Made by a program: the position numbers and the translations under genes
In this document: piece by piece, positions 46,194 to 57,656 of the stretch
Position numbering within the stretch: the first letter of the stretch is position 1
Layout: the number at the start of each line of letters is the position of its first letter
From: Bacteroidales bacterium
GTDB taxonomy: Bacteria > Bacteroidota > Bacteroidia > Bacteroidales > M50B96
NCBI GenBank assembly: GCA_021740905.1
Contig: JAIOYV010000029.1
Location: 1 to 64,000, forward strand
Direction: 5' to 3'
Length of the DNA stretch: 64,000 nt
The notes under the pieces: model-generated
What the model was told of the DNA's origin: nothing
What the model saw: the letters and a program-made list of their open reading frames with translations, nothing else
Database searches by the model: none

Positions 46194-48536
46194 GTGAAAA
46201 TAAAGATCAATAACTTAAATGCCACCTACATCTTGCTTATAAGCAGCCTTATTTCATGCAGCGATCACTATGATTCTACCCAAAATATGGAAGATAATTT
46301 TGGCTCAAATCAAAACCTCACCCAATTCGTTAACCCCTTCATCGGTACAAAAAACATGGGCCATACTTTTCCGGGGGCAGCAGCTCCCTTTGGAATGGTG
46401 CAGCTTAGCTCCGAGACCAACAAGCAGGATATGTATATCGATGGCGAATATAACCGTGATGCTTACAGATATTGCTCGGGTTACCAATATGACGATAGCA
46501 CCATTTTTGGGTTCAGCCATACGCATTTCAGTGGTACGGGCCATTCCGATTGAGGCGATTTTCTGATTATGCCTACCACGGGAAAATTGAACCTGGACCC
46601 TGGAAACGCAGATCAGCCTGGTTCTGGTTATCATTCAGGGTTCTCACACCAAAATGAATCTGCCGAACCTGGCTATTACAAAGTGCTTTTGGATTATCAC
46701 CAAATCACAGCAGAACTTACGGCCAGCGAAAGGGTAGGGGTGCACCGCTATACTTTTGCGAAAGATGATACGGCACATATCATCCTCGATTTGATGTCGA
46801 ACATTTACAATTACAAAGACAAGAATGTGTGGGTTTTTGTGCGGGTTGAAAACGATTCCCTGGTGACTGGGTATCGACAAACCAATGGATGGGCACGAAC
46901 CCGGCTGGTGTATTTTGCCATGCAGTTTTCCGAAGCCTTTCAGCATTATGGCCATAAAAAGTACGACAAAAGTTTGTACAAAGGATTCTATCGGCGGTTT
47001 AATGAAACGGAAAACTTCCCGGAGATGGCAGGAAAAAACATCAGGGCCTATTTCGATTTTGATGTGAAAGGGGGCGACCAACTGCAAGTGAAATTTGCCC
47101 TTTCTTCGGTCAGCACTGCCGGGGCTTTGAAGAACCTGGAGACTGAAACACCCGGCTGGGATTTCGATGAAATCAAGACCCAGACACAGAAAAAGTGGAA
47201 CAGGGAACTCTCGAAAATCATTGTTGAAAGTCAATCGCCCGAAGACCAAGAGACTTTTTATACGGCCCTTTACCACACTATGTTAAGCCCTGTGGTGTTT
47301 GAAGATGTGGAAGGCGAATACAGGGGATTAGATCAAAACATCCACCAATCGGAGGGGTTTGTGAACTACAGTATTTTTTCCTTATGGGATACTTTCCGGG
47401 CTTTGCATCCTTTGTTCAACTTAATTCAACCTACAAGAAACGCAGACATGATAAAATCCATGTTAGCTCACCACGACCAGAGTGTTCATAAAATGTTGCC
47501 TATCTGGAGCCACTATGCCAACGAAAACTGGTGCATGATCGGTTACCATTCGGTGTCTGTGATTGCCGATGCCATTGCCAAGGGAAATACAGGTTTCGAT
47601 GTAAACCATGCACTTGAAGCTTGTATAAACACATCCAACTGTAAGTATTTCGATGGCCTTGATAAATACATGGAGATGGGCTTTGTACCAGAGGATGTAA
47701 GTACCAACTCGGTTTCTAAGACTCTCGAATTTGCTTATGATGATTGGTGTATTGCTCAAATTACAAAGGATGGAGGGATGGATGAAATTACCGAACAATA
47801 CCTGCTGCGATCCATTAATTATCAGAATCTTTTCAATATTGAATCAGGGTATATGCAACCCAAACTGCAGGACAAAAGCTGGAAAACAGATTTCGATCCG
47901 ATGGACACTCACGGGCAGGGCTTCATCGAGGGCAATGCCTGGACATACAGCCTTTTCGTGCCACACGATATCGAGCGAATGATTGATCTGATGGGCGGAA
48001 AAGAATCGTTCGCCAATCGCTTGGACGATCTCTTTACCATGAAACTGGACGATCAATACATCGAGAAAAACGAGGACATTACCCGCGATGGGATTATCGG
48101 GAATTATGTGCAGGGCAATGAGCCGGGCCACCATATTCCCTATTTGTACAACTGGACAGACCAACCTTGGAAAACCCAGGAACGGGTCCGGATGATCATG
48201 GAAACCATGTACGGAAACCGAGAAGATGGCCTCTGTGGAAACGATGATGCAGGACAAATGTCGGCTTGGTATGTTTTTTCAGCGCTTGGTTTTTATCCGG
48301 TTTGCCCGGGTTCAGATCAATACGCAATTGGCAGCCCGATTGTAAAAAATGCTACCATCCATCTCGAAAACGGAAAATCATTCAGCATAAAAACCATCGA
48401 CCAAAGTAGGGAGAATGTGTATATCGAAAAGATCCTTCTCAATGGAGAAGAATTGAACCGAACCTTCCTTCTTCACAACGAAATCAACCAAGGTGGCGAA
48501 ATCGTTTTTTATATGACAGATAAACCAAATGGATAG
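46194..48536 (+). pseudogene. GH92 alpha-mannosidase interrupted by an in-frame TGA
   Basis: Two blocks in one frame, 46194-46550 and 46554-48536, are separated only by TGA at 46551-46553. The first block starts at GTG, has a lipobox (LLISSLISC) and GH92 opening motifs (FVNPFIGTKNMGHTFPGA, SHTHFSGTGHSD). The second continues GDFLIMPTTGKL without loss and carries the calcium-site and catalytic region (GNEPGHHIPYLYNW, GLCGNDDAGQMSAWYVFSALG). In the family a leucine follows GHSD, so TTA to TGA is the simplest cause. Intact, it would be a 780-residue calcium-dependent alpha-mannosidase. UGA is a normal stop in neighbouring genes (for example sixA), so recoding is unlikely; this is a dead gene or an error in the sequence. 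Confidence 0.88.
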
Positions 48537-48584: not shown

Positions 48585-48707
48585 CATACTGTCGCCTCTA
48601 CGAGGCTTGGTAAACTTGCTCCTTTTTATTGCTACCATACTGCCGTTCCTAGCGGAACTCTACTCAATCAATAAATATTCGATAAGCCTCGGAGAGGCGA
48701 CAGTATG
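48585..48707. mobile_element. Short MITE-like element with 24-base inverted ends
   Basis: CATACTGTCGCCTCTACGAG... at 48585-48608 and its inverted copy at 48684-48707 match at 23 of 24 positions. The interior (about 75 bases) has no coding frame and contains a second partial match (CTACCATACTG near 48632, inverted at 48701-48711). Size and ends fit a non-autonomous element or a large hairpin terminator-like structure after the GH92 gene. Confidence 0.6.
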
Positions 48708-49897: not shown

Positions 49898-49964
49898 TTT
49901 TTTGTACGGAATAAATGGTGAGAGGTGCATTCTGATTATTTTAGCCGGGGCCGTCTACTCGATT
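49898..49964. repeat. Direct repeat, left copy beside the HigBA module
   Basis: About 67 bases including GTACGGAATAAATGGTGAGA and ending TTTAGCCGGGGCCGTCTACTC plus GATT. A diverged copy in the same orientation is at 50988-51054. Together they bracket the toxin-antitoxin module. Confidence 0.65.
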
Positions 49965-49984: not shown

Positions 49985-50311
49985 TCAGGCGAGTTTAACT
50001 GTCTGATTGAGCAATTCAACGTTAAAATTAACTTTAGCATTCAAAGCTTTAAAAACTTTTAAAATAGTCTCGAATCGTGCATCTGTCAGGCTGTTCTCCA
50101 ACTTTGAAATTTGCGCTTTTTTAACTCCGACTAATTGCCCTAATTCTTCTTGTGTCAAATGACGGTCCTTTCGTGCTTGTCTGATTGCTTCACCAAGTAA
50201 GTCAAGCCTTAATTCGTTTTCGAAGGCATCACGCTTTGGAGTTCCCAGTTTGCCGATATATTTATCAGTTACTTCGTCCAAACTAATTGTTTTTAATGGT
50301 TCATCTTTCAT
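49985..50311 (-). CDS. higA: HigA-type antitoxin with XRE helix-turn-helix
   Basis: A 108-residue protein. Residues about 35-90 are an XRE/Cro helix-turn-helix (IRQARKDRHLTQEELGQLVG, VKKAQISKLENSL). It neutralises the toxin encoded just ahead and represses the operon. It overlaps the toxin gene by 4 bases (50308-50311). The toxin-first order is typical of hig modules. Confidence 0.9.
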   Translation of the reverse strand: MKDEPLKTISLDEVTDKYIGKLGTPKRDAFENELRLDLLGEAIRQARKDRHLTQEELGQLVGVKKAQISKLENSLTDARFETILKVFKALNAKVNFNVELLNQTVKLA

Positions 50312-50649
50312 AGTTTCTTCCTTTCAAAATAAAGTTTTCTGATTCTCTCTGCTTTCTCTAACTCTCCGCTAGGAGTTTTGTCTGTCTTTTTGATTAGTCC
50401 GTGTGTTGAGATTATGACAGTTTCCGTTTGACCAGTCTTGTCCCAAAAGGCAAAAAGCCGATAATGGGTTCTGTTAAACAATGTCCTGAATTCCCAGATT
50501 TCATTTTTTAGTTTTTTGAAGAGTTCCTTGTCATTGGAAAGTCTTGCTTTTTGAATGTTGTAGATGACTTTATCTCTCGCCTTTTCTTCTAGGCTGTCTA
50601 AAAACTCAGCTGCTTCTTCTAAAAACTGAACTTGAAATTTCTCAGTCAT
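50308..50649 (-). CDS. higB: HigB-type (RelE superfamily, phage Gp49-like) toxin
   Basis: A 113-residue protein with the HigB2/Gp49 pattern: QVQFLEEAAEFLDSLEEKAR, LKNEIWEFRTLFNRTHYRLF, FWDKTG and TVIISTHGLIKKTDKTP. Members cut mRNA at the ribosome. It is the first gene of the pair. The arginine and lysine positions of the core are intact. Confidence 0.9.
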   Translation of the reverse strand: MTEKFQVQFLEEAAEFLDSLEEKARDKVIYNIQKARLSNDKELFKKLKNEIWEFRTLFNRTHYRLFAFWDKTGQTETVIISTHGLIKKTDKTPSGELEKAERIRKLYFERKKL

Positions 50650-50987
50650 ATTGTAAAAGTTTATACAAAGATAGATGTTTCTTTATTAGGAAACAACTAT
50701 TGTTTGTATTGCGGTCCAAACCTTAAAGTATAAGAAACTTAAGTGATTTCGAAGCTCTTACTTGTCAATTTAAACTGATTAATTGTGCATAAGTACCGTA
50801 AACCACTGAGCCACTTATGATTTTTATACATTGTGTGCCCTGCACGGGCTTGCAGCGCCCACACCCGGAAGCCGTGAATAAATTATTCATTTTAGTCAAG
50901 AGAGAAGTTCGAACTGTCTCGTACCGAAAGGTCGGGAAGACCCGTACAGCCTGTCCCGAACTTGATTCAAGATACGTGTCGTCCCGA
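50650..50987. other. Intergenic region upstream of higBA, no gene
   Basis: About 340 bases. AT-rich near the toxin start, where the promoter should lie. Further up is a GC-richer stretch with short inverted pieces (GTGTGCCCTGCACGGGC near 50832; GTCGGGAAGACCCG near 50931). I see no coding frame and no tRNA fold. Confidence 0.45.
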
Positions 50988-51054
50988 CTTTTAGTACGGG
51001 TTAAATGGCGAGTGGCACCTTCCGGTTATTTTAGCCGGGGGCGTCTACTCGATT
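50988..51054. repeat. Direct repeat, right copy beside the HigBA module
   Basis: Same orientation as the copy at 49898-49964: GTACGGGTTAAATGGCGAGT, ending TTTAGCCGGGGGCGTCTACTC plus GATT. It abuts the end of the nuclease-like gene at 51073. Confidence 0.65.
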
Positions 51055-51072: not shown

Positions 51073-52950
51073 TTACAGAGTTCTTAAAATATATTCCGCT
51101 TTATCTCTTTGGTAAGGCACTTCAACCTTGTAATATCTATCATAGTCAGGATAAAGTACAACCAAATTCATTATTGTCACAGTAAGTCCATAGTTTTTCT
51201 CCAAGATGTATCTGTACAAACTTTGCTGTAAACAATATCGATTGTAGCTAGTATCATCAATTTCGCTCAATTGCCCGACTCCACACTGCCAAGAGTTATC
51301 ACAAATTGGTTCTCCCGTTATTGGATTGACCACTTTTTTGCTTCTTTTCCAATCATAAATTTCATAACCGCTGCCGTTCTTAGAAATTAAATCAATAGTC
51401 CCTGCGATGTGGTGGTCTTCGTCAAACACTCTCCATTCGCTTCTGTATGGTTTAATGTCTTCATGGTCGGAAACAAATTGTTCGAAGAGGCTGAATTCAT
51501 CAGTTCTTTGGTAATCTTGGTTTAAATAAAACTTTTCAATCTGCTCGTGAAGGTATGTCCCTTCCTGAGCCGCTTTTTCACCTTTATCTTTCCAACCTTT
51601 AGCAATTTGATTGGCTACTCTTTGAATATTCGATTCAGTTAATTCTAAGCCTTCAATTGTAAGTCGCTCTATTGCCTTTTTCCTTGACCAATATGGAGAA
51701 TCAAACTCTGGGAAGAATTTTGAGATAACCGTACTTGCAGACGGTGCTGGTGTCTTATCAATAGTATAAATATGTGGTTCCGGATAAAACTCAATTCTTT
51801 TGTCCCGTGGATGTGCGTTTATTAAATTAAACCCGATTGAAGGTCTCTTGTCTGCAATACCTATCAAGGTTGGTTGCACTAAGTTTTCTTCATTTATCTC
51901 CTGCTCATTAAATTCTCTATCTATAGTTTCAATTCTGTCTGCTACATACATGAATTCGTGTTCTAGGTATTTTTCTCTGTATTTGTCTTTTTCCCACTTC
52001 TGTGCCTGAACAATATCCCAAAGCATTTCGTTCTCAACAGTCTGTGTATTGGCTAATTTTTCTGGAACACAGAAGGTTGGTGAAACTGAATTTATTACAT
52101 CCGAAATAAATTTTAAGCACTGTTTTTCAAACTTATGTACTTGGTATTCGGAAAACCTTATTACTATCCAACCTCTATCAATAAAATATATGTCTCTCAT
52201 TGTATTATCACCTTTACAGTGGGTTGGTTGTCTTGTAATTCCTGCATAGGGTTCGTCAATTTCAATATCAATTCGCAGACTATTATTTTTCCTGTCAACA
52301 AGTGCAATATCAGGCTCAAAGGGTCTTGTATCTTTTCCTGTATTAATTCTAATTTCACCTGAAACAATAAAATGACTACCAAAAGCAGTTTCAATAGCTT
52401 TCTGAAATACTTCTTCTTTATATCCCCTGCGTTTTGTAGTTCCTATGCGATAAGACCTAACCACCGTATTTTTTTTTGGATATCTGAATATTGGATAAGC
52501 GTTTGTTTGCTTTGCTCTTGAAGAAGTATAGTTTACTTTCTGTATATTATTTATAACCTTTTCTGTTTCTTCTTTCGCTTGAGGTAAATCTTCTTTTTGT
52601 TTAGACTTTGGTGCAAGAACTTCAATTTCAGGTTTCAGCTTTGGTTCTTTTTCTATGTGAGACAGATATTCGCTTATTGGTTCTTGAACTTTATTTTCGG
52701 TTGTTTTTCTTGTAGTGTTGTATTTCTTAATTGGAACTTTGTCGGTTGTGTTTACTGGCTCATGACTTTTTACTTCATGTCTCCCCTTGCTTTCATCTTC
52801 TTTAGTTCCTTGATTGGCTATCCAAAGCCCAATAAAAAAGACTATCCACATTGTAGTCCCTTCAACAGGCCCTACGTCATTAAATTTTACCATAAAAAAG
52901 GCAAATGCCAGTACCGGTAAAATCATTAATGCACAACCAAATTTTCTCAT
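51073..52950 (-). CDS. Membrane-anchored protein with two nuclease-fold (PD-(D/E)XK-like) domains
   Basis: A 625-residue protein; AAGGA precedes the start. Two N-terminal membrane helices lie at residues 5-22 and 33-47. A charged linker follows (50-160). The first nuclease-like domain (about 170-290) has FEPDIALV and RIDIEIDEPYAG, the DUF559/Vsr-like form of the D...E-x-D/K site. A helical spacer (300-385) leads to the second domain (about 386-625): PSASTVISKFFPEFD, GTYLHEQIEKFY (464-475), SEWRVFD, AGTIDLIS (D520), YDWKRSKK (D533, K535) and YCLQQSLYRYILEK, a full RecB/Cas4-like motif set. It sits beside a repeat-flanked HigBA module, so a defence role is plausible but unproven. I do not know this architecture by name. 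Confidence 0.75.
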   Translation of the reverse strand: MRKFGCALMILPVLAFAFFMVKFNDVGPVEGTTMWIVFFIGLWIANQGTKEDESKGRHEVKSHEPVNTTDKVPIKKYNTTRKTTENKVQEPISEYLSHIEKEPKLKPEIEVLAPKSKQKEDLPQAKEETEKVINNIQKVNYTSSRAKQTNAYPIFRYPKKNTVVRSYRIGTTKRRGYKEEVFQKAIETAFGSHFIVSGEIRINTGKDTRPFEPDIALVDRKNNSLRIDIEIDEPYAGITRQPTHCKGDNTMRDIYFIDRGWIVIRFSEYQVHKFEKQCLKFISDVINSVSPTFCVPEKLANTQTVENEMLWDIVQAQKWEKDKYREKYLEHEFMYVADRIETIDREFNEQEINEENLVQPTLIGIADKRPSIGFNLINAHPRDKRIEFYPEPHIYTIDKTPAPSASTVISKFFPEFDSPYWSRKKAIERLTIEGLELTESNIQRVANQIAKGWKDKGEKAAQEGTYLHEQIEKFYLNQDYQRTDEFSLFEQFVSDHEDIKPYRSEWRVFDEDHHIAGTIDLISKNGSGYEIYDWKRSKKVVNPITGEPICDNSWQCGVGQLSEIDDTSYNRYCLQQSLYRYILEKNYGLTVTIMNLVVLYPDYDRYYKVEVPYQRDKAEYILRTL

Positions 52951-56577: not shown

Positions 56578-56721
56578 AGTCAGTAATTTTTACTACGAAG
56601 GTAGATAGAAATTTTATCTGTTCTACAATAAAAAGATCCGTTGATTTTTACCACCTTCTTCTTACTGTGTTGTGATGCGTATTTTAAAAACCAATGAAAA
56701 ATGAAACCGGGAAATAATTGT

Positions 56722-56729
56722 TATTTTTG
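56722..56729 (+). promoter_or_regulatory. Candidate -7 box for the Rpn-type nuclease gene
   Basis: TATTTTTG fits TAnnTTTG, 21 bases before the ATG at 56751, which supports that start over an in-frame one at 56718. Confidence 0.4.
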
Positions 56730-56750
56730 TATGGAAAAAAGAAAATAGCC

Positions 56751-57656
56751 ATGGAAGAGAAAAAAGAAAAATATATTAACCCATTCACTGATTATGGTTT
56801 TAAAAGACTTTTTGGGGAAGAACCCAGCAAAGATTTATTGCTCGATTTTCTGAACGAACTTCTGGGCGATAAAGAAGGAAAGATTAAAGAGCTTTCATAC
56901 CAGTCTACAGAAAATTTACCTATCACCATAGGAAACAGAAAAGCCATTTTCGATATATACTGTACAAACGAAAAGGGTGAAAAATTCATTGTTGAAATGC
57001 AGAAAGTAGAACAACAATATTTTAAGGACAGAATGTTGTTTTATTCAACCTTCCCGATTCAAGTTCAAGCAAAAGACAAAGGTAAAAACTGGGATTTTAA
57101 CTTAAAGCATGTGTACGCCATCGGTATTCTTGATTTTTCATTTAAGGAAGACGAACCCGACCCGGAAAAATACCGATACGATGCCAAAATAACGGAAATC
57201 GAAACAGGGGAAATATTTTATGATAAGCTGACTTTCACATATTTGGCAATGGAAAAGTTCAACAAGGAACTTGATCAGATAAATTCAAAATTTGAAAAAT
57301 GGCTTTATGTAATAAAAAACCTAAGCAAACTGGATAGAGTGCCTGAAAAGTTACGAGAAGAGATATTCATTAAATTTTTCCAGATTGCCGAAATAGCTAA
57401 AATGAAAGAAGAAGAATACAGAGAATACGAGGCAAGTTTAAATGCGTATCGCGACATAAAGAATTCGGTCGATTTTGCAGAAAAAAAAGGGATTGAAAAA
57501 GGGATAGAAAAAGGAGAGGAAAGCAAAACAATGAAGGTTGTTCTTATAATGAACGAGAAAGGTTATTCTAATGAAGAAATAGCTGAGGTTACAGAGCTTT
57601 CGATTGAACGGGTGGTTGAGTTGCTAAAACAAATCAATGAGCAAGACATTCAATAA
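56751..57656 (+). CDS. Rpn/PD-(D/E)XK family nuclease (putative transposase-type)
   Basis: A 301-residue protein from the ATG at 56751 (MEEKKEKYINP). The family opening YINPFTDYGFKRLFGEEPSK is clear, as is the nuclease core FDIYCTNEKGEKFIVEMQ (D...E-x-Q) and the C-terminal KGIEKGIEKGEE helix followed by NEEIAEVTELSIERV. Members are recombination-promoting DNases linked to mobile elements; in Bacteroidota many copies are scattered in genomes. Its last 20 bases overlap the next gene. No inverted ends are seen around it. Confidence 0.85.
   Translation: MEEKKEKYINPFTDYGFKRLFGEEPSKDLLLDFLNELLGDKEGKIKELSYQSTENLPITIGNRKAIFDIYCTNEKGEKFIVEMQKVEQQYFKDRMLFYSTFPIQVQAKDKGKNWDFNLKHVYAIGILDFSFKEDEPDPEKYRYDAKITEIETGEIFYDKLTFTYLAMEKFNKELDQINSKFEKWLYVIKNLSKLDRVPEKLREEIFIKFFQIAEIAKMKEEEYREYEASLNAYRDIKNSVDFAEKKGIEKGIEKGEESKTMKVVLIMNEKGYSNEEIAEVTELSIERVVELLKQINEQDIQ

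Follow-up and report, generated by a model that had tools for sequence, protein, structure and literature searches.

On the minus strand of a 64,000-nucleotide stretch of Bacteroidales DNA (positions 1 to 64,000 of contig JAIOYV010000029.1, hereafter called the window) lies a gene for a protein in which a hydrophobic N-terminus is followed by two predicted nuclease domains, and the family to which this protein belongs probably represents a form of defence against invading DNA that has not been described. The reading that we favour, if only by a modest degree, is that of an accessory, membrane-tethered defence nuclease, similar in layout to SNIPE, whose predicted endonuclease and exonuclease domains would act on DNA as it enters the cell; its membrane topology, nuclease activity, substrate, role in defence and action at the site of DNA entry are properties that we infer. 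The open reading frame (ORF) begins at an ATG, spans positions 51073-52950 as reported earlier, and is present as a single copy in the window's genome. A published description of such a nuclease family was not found in the open-licence PMC literature. The gene and its parts are the following.

51073..52950, minus strand: nuclease gene, 625 aa (ORF, translation, structure model, fold search)
52813..52923, minus strand: residues 10-46, predicted membrane helix or helical hairpin (model helices and hydropathy)
52459..52812, minus strand: residues 47-164, charged, low-confidence, fast-evolving linker (predicted local distance difference test, pLDDT; ratio of nonsynonymous to synonymous substitution rates, dN/dS)
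52051..52458, minus strand: residues 165-300, DUF559/Vsr-like nuclease domain, here domain 1, with E179, D214, E230, D232, H244 and D253 (fold, conservation, dN/dS)
51076..51795, minus strand: residues 386-625, MGME1/RecB-like PD-(D/E)XK exonuclease domain, here domain 2 (phrog_298, fold, conservation, dN/dS)

Two predicted nuclease domains

Sequence and model together give the order, from the N-terminus, of membrane segment(s), linker, DUF559/Vsr-like nuclease domain and MGME1-like exonuclease domain. AlphaFold, working from an alignment of seven rows, returned two separate domains with a mean pLDDT of 60; values fell below 50 across residues 46-174, were mostly 70-90 per ten-residue block in domain 1 (34-52 over residues 231-260 and 42 over 201-210), and were mostly 72-92 in domain 2, with dips to 54-69. 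A sequence search of the Protein Data Bank (PDB) with the window protein alone gave no match beyond chance (best E 0.25), and the family profile retrieved 3hrl as its best match at E 0.11, with no solved sequence relative. Because solved relatives were not found by sequence, fold comparison decided the identities of the two domains, and in these fold searches the absence of other families carries no evidential weight.

Domain 2 carries the motifs GTYLH (residues 464-468), E505, GTID (517-520), DWK (533-535) and QxxxY (575-579), which are not a product of chance, because the phage exonuclease profile phrog_298 matches residues 378-620 with E = 4.5e-29; Pfam PDDEXK_1 also matches, at 441-538, under the Pfam cut-off (E 0.0046). 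Its predicted fold is closest to human MGME1 (Foldseek E 7.1e-7; Z 13.4, root-mean-square deviation 4.0, 184 residues), followed by the nuclease domains of AdnAB and AddAB, Cas4 and DNA2. Across the 12 full-length members of the family, a set that excludes L045 (cut by a contig end) and L044 (with a frame break), H468, D520, D533, Q575 and Y579 are invariant, and L102 alone lacks E505 and K535, which the other 11 retain. No invariant cysteine is found in domain 2 of nine aligned members, and hence no sign of an iron-sulphur cluster. An earlier note on this gene, made from the sequence alone, had described here a RecB/Cas4-like motif set; the set is indeed complete, but "MGME1-like" is a better description than "Cas4-like".

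For domain 1, comparison of the full model gave 3hrl, a DUF559-like endonuclease, as the best match (Z 9.6, root-mean-square deviation 2.2, 94 of 94 residues), with the homing endonuclease I-Bth0305I at Z 7.1. When residues 160-335 were modelled with their own alignment (pLDDT 71), 3hrl again ranked first at Z 9.1, with the Bax1 nuclease (7.5), I-Bth0305I (7.3) and Vsr (5.8) below it; as a Z under 8 may reflect a common arrangement, only 3hrl carries weight for this domain. Foldseek with the domain-1-only model returned nothing at E <0.001, and the assignment is therefore made on VIA-align and on the motif pattern. Pfam DUF559 (PF04480) matches residues 246-285 at E 0.058 and 13.7 bits, against a cut-off of 20.6; those relatives that match it at all reach 14.6-19.8 bits, also under the cut-off, and no Pfam model scored above its cut-off over domain 1 in the proteins scanned. 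E212, E230, D232, R252 and D253 are invariant across the 12 full-length members, D214 and H244 are missing from L048 and conserved in the other 11, and the glutamate of helix 1, E179, is invariant in six aligned rows and, by eye, missing only in L048. Taken separately, each domain thus has its motif residues complete in 11 of the 12, the window protein included. The proposal of two nuclease-fold cores is borne out, since AlphaFold and the fold searches recovered folds of restriction-endonuclease type in both regions, and a model lacking such folds was not what we obtained. The motifs that had been named, PDIALV and DIEIDEPY in domain 1 and the five listed above in domain 2, are all present, and the 3hrl match is consistent with the DUF559/Vsr-like core that had been predicted.

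A signature of its own, EIDEPY...GWxVIRFxExQV, marks domain 1 in cyanobacterial and Bacteroidota proteins with varied partners. Domain 1 is also found without domain 2 in genomes of the window's phylum, together with membrane segments, WYL or other partners; at L103:8621-10210, a membrane segment, domain 1 and a WYL domain were seen in one protein, with a serine recombinase nearby.

Relatives, distribution and constraint

Loci with both domains number 14, namely the window, L014, L015, L016, L042, L043, L044, L045, L046, L047, L048, L100, L101 and L102. The frame-split L044 and the truncated L045 are counted among them; L017 is excluded (it is cut by a contig start, has no adjacent helicase and has neighbours that read as housekeeping), as are L103 and the loci with a lone domain. 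Between the window protein and its closest relative, that of L014 (74% identical), dN/dS computed with Nei-Gojobori counts is 0.089 for domain 1 and 0.108 for domain 2; residues 1-150 show 37% identity and a dN/dS of 0.46. Both domains are under strong constraint, and the N-terminus much less so. Weak constraint on the N-terminus has likewise been reported for SNIPE homologues in an excerpt of PMC13190303.

Searches returned four named records of relatives, presumably all from Bacteroidota. Genomes with any match amounted to 7 of 149, 11 of 395, 16 of 395 and 26 of 393 in the sets searched, the window's genome being counted in each; most of these matches are partial and cover one domain only, and many of the weakest in the sets with 16 of 395 and 26 of 393 look like ordinary DUF559 proteins. 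The distribution of the family is patchy. Viral contigs gave nothing when searched with the single window protein, and two IMG/VR loci when searched with the family alignment: L042, which has a Mob_Pre relaxase in its vicinity, and L043, with a YqaJ exonuclease and ORFs that read as phage-like close by. Phage records contributed five weak matches, limited or nearly limited to domain 2 (residues 372-623).

Defence genes around the family

The window protein itself had zero matches in PADLOC-DB 2.0.0 at E up to 1, and the best match among six full-length relatives scanned was Cas4 at 0.005. The surroundings of the 14 nuclease genes were surveyed out to 5.5 kb through every non-overlapping ORF of 120 aa or longer other than the nuclease and helicase genes, and this set held 107 proteins over 124,468 flank bases; 128 proteins from 13 arbitrary 12-kb regions in eight genomes served as the control. 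At a PADLOC threshold of E up to 1e-20, the neighbours matched 80 families and the control two, GlgB (2 proteins) and TPR (1 protein); PADLOC models are redundant, so that family counts are not protein counts, and the collection also holds PDC and HEC candidates that are themselves unproven. Defence or candidate proteins that could be named individually were 14 of the 107, at 7 of the 14 loci, all by PADLOC match:

L014: HEC-04-like ATPase, Mrr, D12 methyltransferase
L015: BrxA, BrxB, BrxC, PDC-S02 (with PglX just beyond the 5.5-kb limit)
L016: PDC-S11
L046: PDC-M15A
L047: AbiEi, AbiEii
L100: RT_UG19
L101: HsdS and part of HsdM of a type I restriction-modification system

The first 25 of the 80 families were listed, and matches that were not traced to a protein were left uncounted: a second reverse transcriptase (probably at L044), two Fic-type members, mad3 and PDC-M15B. 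At L100:11035-13385, a DRT-type reverse transcriptase (UG19-like) and an RTas1465-like protein lie directly upstream of the nuclease-helicase pair on the same strand.

A survey of homologues for linkage to defence genes, which had been suggested earlier, is thus positive, and the presence of such neighbours at half of the loci, when the control yielded GlgB and TPR only, strengthens the reading as a defence nuclease. The accessory, perhaps anti-phage, role proposed at the outset gains support from these neighbours, although its anti-phage part is still one that we infer.

The predicted membrane anchor

A hydrophobic, membrane-type segment near the N-terminus was read in 10 of 14 members (window, L014, L015, L016, L042, L044, L046, L047, L102 and L103), this set being made up of 13 of the 14 two-domain loci (not L045) plus L103, which is without domain 2. 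In the window protein the model has helices at 10-25 and 28-46, both with low pLDDT, and a single segment (3-21) rises above a plain hydropathy threshold; the proteins of L014, L015 and L016 have one hydrophobic region apiece. The two N-terminal membrane helices described earlier are therefore retained as a hydrophobic N-terminus, with their number uncertain. The L047 protein has two hydrophobic segments, the first signal-peptide-like, with a VWA domain between them (Pfam E 6.4e-16), and it is possible that this form is an outside sensor fused to an inside nuclease. In the gene at L047:5844-8447, the signal-peptide-like segment, the VWA domain and a transmembrane segment all stand ahead of the two nuclease domains. 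Read from the sequences, the kind of predicted anchor is variable: a transmembrane segment, a VWA domain plus a transmembrane segment, or none.

Putative helicase partners

At 5 of the 14 loci (L043, L046, L047, L100 and L101) the nuclease gene is followed on the same strand, after 0-20 nt, by a gene for a superfamily 1 (SF1) helicase. The helicases of L043 and L046, the two scanned with Pfam, match AAA_11 and AAA_12; that of L047 (P0012), the one searched against the PDB, has DNA2 as its best match at 3.5e-36, followed by Upf1-type helicases; and the three scanned with PADLOC match best to MkoA of Mokosh, at 5.8e-56 to 9.8e-60, with MkoC matching too. Beside the other nine members no helicase of that family was found, and these nine include the window together with the four members closest to it in the tree; the window, L014, L015, L016 and L044 form, in fact, one clade without an adjacent helicase (support 97/98). 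Loss of the helicase in the window's lineage is plausible from the tree, in which the helicase-bearing L046 lies nearer to that clade. Since the pairing requires three changes on the tree, and at least two when only well-supported branches are counted, neither a single gain nor repeated loss is settled. A search for a DNA2-like helicase elsewhere in the window's genome gave only pieces of SF1 helicases, at 30-37% identity, and no clear unlinked partner.

The pairing invites two other readings. The first, which we regard as possible and put forward tentatively, is that of a two-part system resembling a split DNA2 or RecBCD, in which a double nuclease (DUF559-like endonuclease and MGME1-like exonuclease) would be kept at the envelope by an exchangeable anchor, and entering DNA would be unwound and digested wherever the helicase is present. 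The anchor would then take the form of a single transmembrane segment, of a hairpin, or of an outward-facing VWA sensor with a transmembrane segment, and the VWA form could sense injection from outside and signal to the nuclease within one chain. The second, which strikes us as unlikely, is a damage sensor of the Hachiman kind: the pair would patrol DNA, damage caused by a phage would free the nuclease, all DNA would be destroyed in an abortive infection, and the membrane segment would serve only as storage. HamB comes from another helicase superfamily, and together with the nine members beside which no such helicase was found, the window and its nearest relatives among them, this argues against a damage sensor. 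In its favour are the direct pairing at five loci, the fact that three of the five paired members are without a membrane segment, and the description of Hachiman HamAB as a nuclease-helicase complex in an excerpt of PMC12278908.

Domain 1 on plasmids

Relatives of domain 1 were found on 40 plasmid records (L025-L029 and 35 others), 25 of them typed as conjugative. Among the 30 matches listed, all are cyanobacterial, nearly all are annotated as hypothetical or unknown, and the match spans only residues 112-335, with domain 2 not seen; the five examined are ORFs of 190-340 aa. These records bear on the possibility, to which we give only a low probability, that the protein is a barrier to plasmids and DNA uptake, with an exonuclease that would degrade the single-stranded DNA of conjugation or natural transformation and not phage DNA. 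MGME1, the nearest fold of domain 2, is a single-strand exonuclease, and DNA entering by conjugation or transformation does so in single-stranded form; the window's subgroup has no adjacent helicase gene, and the plasmid relatives could point to competition between plasmids. An uptake barrier is, however, harder to reconcile with identified neighbours that are mostly anti-phage or restriction systems, with the nuclease gene carried by the viral contig L043, and with plasmid matches that, among those listed, cover domain 1 without domain 2.

Proposed mode of action

Returning to a membrane-tethered defence nuclease, we propose that the protein would be attached to the cytoplasmic membrane on its inner side, where the anchor would keep it off the chromosome and near the point at which phage, conjugative or transforming DNA comes in. 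Domain 1 might make or enlarge a break, and domain 2 might then degrade from the free end. At about a third of the loci, the DNA2-like SF1 helicase would feed single strands to the exonuclease, as in a split DNA2; in the window's close relatives, which have no adjacent helicase, the protein would have to act alone, on DNA that is single-stranded from the start, or with an unlinked helicase. Discrimination of self from non-self would be by place and not by sequence, by analogy with the model for SNIPE.

Several observations weigh against this proposal. L048 has lost residues of domain 1 and L102 residues of domain 2, so that both activities are not always kept, and the membrane segment is missing in 4 of the 14 members read (L043, L048, L100 and L101). 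With ORFs of at least 120 aa within 5.5 kb considered, no PADLOC neighbour was identified at 7 of the 14 loci, among them the window, where the nearest flanking sequence contains nothing but higBA and repeats; of the seven positive loci, two depend on unproven candidate families (PDC-S11 and PDC-M15A); and the eight control genomes, only one of which carries a counted full-length locus, were not matched genome by genome. Finally, L048, L102 and L017 are surrounded by genes that read as housekeeping. Such surroundings, and a fold common to the MGME1, DNA2, AddAB and RecB repair nucleases, would suit an ordinary repair or recombination exonuclease, a DNA maintenance enzyme associated with the membrane by chance. 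We hold this to be very improbable, given the patchy distribution and some mobile contexts, the fast-evolving N-terminus, and the defence-type neighbours at half of the loci when none was identified in the controls; homologues were not found consistently in housekeeping operons, these few apart.

Membrane location as the rule by which a nuclease tells self from non-self has been shown only recently, with SNIPE. If our proposal is true, an unrelated protein with the layout of SNIPE, made of two PD-(D/E)XK-type domains and linked in some genomes with a DNA2-like helicase, would point to the tethering of nucleases as a general strategy with more than one origin. The family offers defined residues in two predicted active sites, and natural versions with and without the helicase and with different anchors, so that experiments can tell apart what anchor, endonuclease, exonuclease and helicase each contribute.

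Flanking repeats and other features of the window

The 3' side of the gene is occupied by the following features, of which the two genes matching PF05973 and PF01381 are taken by us to be HigB-like and HigA-like.

50945..51054, plus strand: dispersed repeat that adjoins the nuclease gene on its 3' side and is probably the degenerate 3' end of a group II intron
50308..50649, minus strand: HigB-like toxin (Gp49 family; PF05973, E 8.2e-17), a neighbour outside the proposed system
49985..50311, minus strand: HigA-like antitoxin, HTH_3 (PF01381, E 2.5e-12), a neighbour
49899..49964, plus strand: another, shorter copy of this repeat, beyond higBA (83% identity over 66 nt)

HigA (108 aa) and HigB (113 aa) fall below the 120-aa limit of the neighbour set, and their PADLOC matches, to general helix-turn-helix models and to NsnC at 2.6e-9, were not counted. 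The earlier note had argued for an accessory function from the position beside a repeat-flanked HigBA module; higBA is flanked by repeats as described, but the argument itself is weak, as the repeats are probably group II intron ends and are scattered over the genome, with 12 matches (query included, and one place split in two pieces). L010, a copy related to these, scores 37.4 bits (E 4e-4) against RF00029, the model for group II introns, whose gathering score is 40; at E up to 1 the copies in the window show no such match, nor do nine of the ten repeat loci scanned for RF00029 at E up to 0.1. Resemblance to L010 across 45 nt is what makes the window's flanking repeats probable 3' ends of group II introns. 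By eye, 9 of 11 copies in the repeat family (window copies and L002-L012) are located immediately beyond the 3' terminus of an ORF that runs on the other strand; it is as if the intron targeted gene ends or terminators.

BLAST homology between the window and L014 continues for 20 nt after the stop codon, as far as 51053, and breaks off there, within the final 2 nt of the repeat. The L014 gene sits in an array with five complete palindromic sites of about 110 nt placed after genes, and a sixth cut by the contig end. In this Flavobacteriaceae metagenome-assembled genome, the palindromes at L014:785-8562 separate an ATPase, the nuclease relative, Mrr, a methyltransferase pair and others. When the five sites were aligned, all 21 pairs, named by hand from the sequence, formed in all five, 3 of them with compensated changes. 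All 500 shuffles scored lower for covariation, as did every slid version; the number of doubly changed cells also exceeded that in all 500 shuffles, while 156 of the 500 reached the observed count of doubly changed pairs. From their R''/L''/L'/R' layout we take the palindromes to be attC-like, and the array would then be a run of integron-like cassettes carrying many defence-type genes. TIGR02249, used to look for an integrase in this draft genome, found nothing above the cut-off of 265 bits; its best piece, at 128 bits, is without meaning, as the model gives sub-cut-off matches in all 14 control genomes. A model built from the L014 sites, R1, gave no match in the window, and the window repeat was accordingly rejected as an attC of this type; in the window's genome R1 also found no attC, in a search that covered the L014 type only and had no positive control. 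Group IIC introns are the only class reported to associate with integrons in an excerpt of PMC7923331, and a link between the two is here only a lead.

Elsewhere in the window, a gene of PD-(D/E)XK transposase type (PDDEXK_2) lies at 56718-57656, and a 24-nt inverted repeat, 96% complementary and with a 75-nt loop, lies at 48585-48707, just downstream of the gene at 46569-48536. A mir-282 match to this inverted repeat was dismissed as weak and far below the gathering score.

Comparison with known systems

Domain 1 shares its predicted fold with DUF559/3hrl, I-Bth0305I and Vsr, of which only 3hrl is clear of the level of a common arrangement; it differs from DUF559 in scoring under the Pfam cut-off and in having its own signature. 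MGME1 is a single-domain mitochondrial enzyme, whose fold and RecB-like motif set domain 2 shares; in the window protein, by contrast, a membrane segment and a DUF559-like domain precede domain 2 in one chain. DNA2 resembles the family in joining a RecB-like nuclease (Z 9.2 with domain 2) to an SF1 helicase of the DNA2/Upf1 group, which stands beside the nuclease at 5 of 14 loci (one helicase searched). The two are, however, separate genes here and not one chain, and where the DNA2 nuclease carries a four-cysteine iron-sulphur cluster, the nine aligned members have no invariant cysteine in domain 2. Mokosh, to whose MkoA and MkoC the three scanned helicases are similar, pairs its helicase with a phospholipase-D-type nuclease, whereas the partner here is a PD-(D/E)XK nuclease. 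HamB of Hachiman belongs to a different helicase superfamily from ours. The two-gene layout of nuclease and helicase is nevertheless shared with HamAB as set out in the excerpt of PMC12278908, and the difference is that PADLOC returns nothing for the window nuclease at E up to 1, and so no match to HamA if it is modelled there.

Zorya, Kiwa and SNIPE are DNA-targeting systems that use membrane localisation, according to an excerpt of PMC12904381. The window protein is filed under none of the three, because it has no match to PADLOC, nor to the SNIPE domains DUF4041 and GIY-YIG in a Pfam scan at E up to 1, which lists only PDDEXK_1 and DUF559. The likeness to SNIPE, as far as the excerpt of PMC13190303 describes that system, lies in an N-terminal membrane segment that is poorly conserved, variable in kind and missing from some homologues, followed by a cytoplasmic DNA-handling domain and a C-terminal nuclease; what sets the window protein apart is that it has two domains of PD-(D/E)XK type, joined in some of its relatives by a helicase partner.

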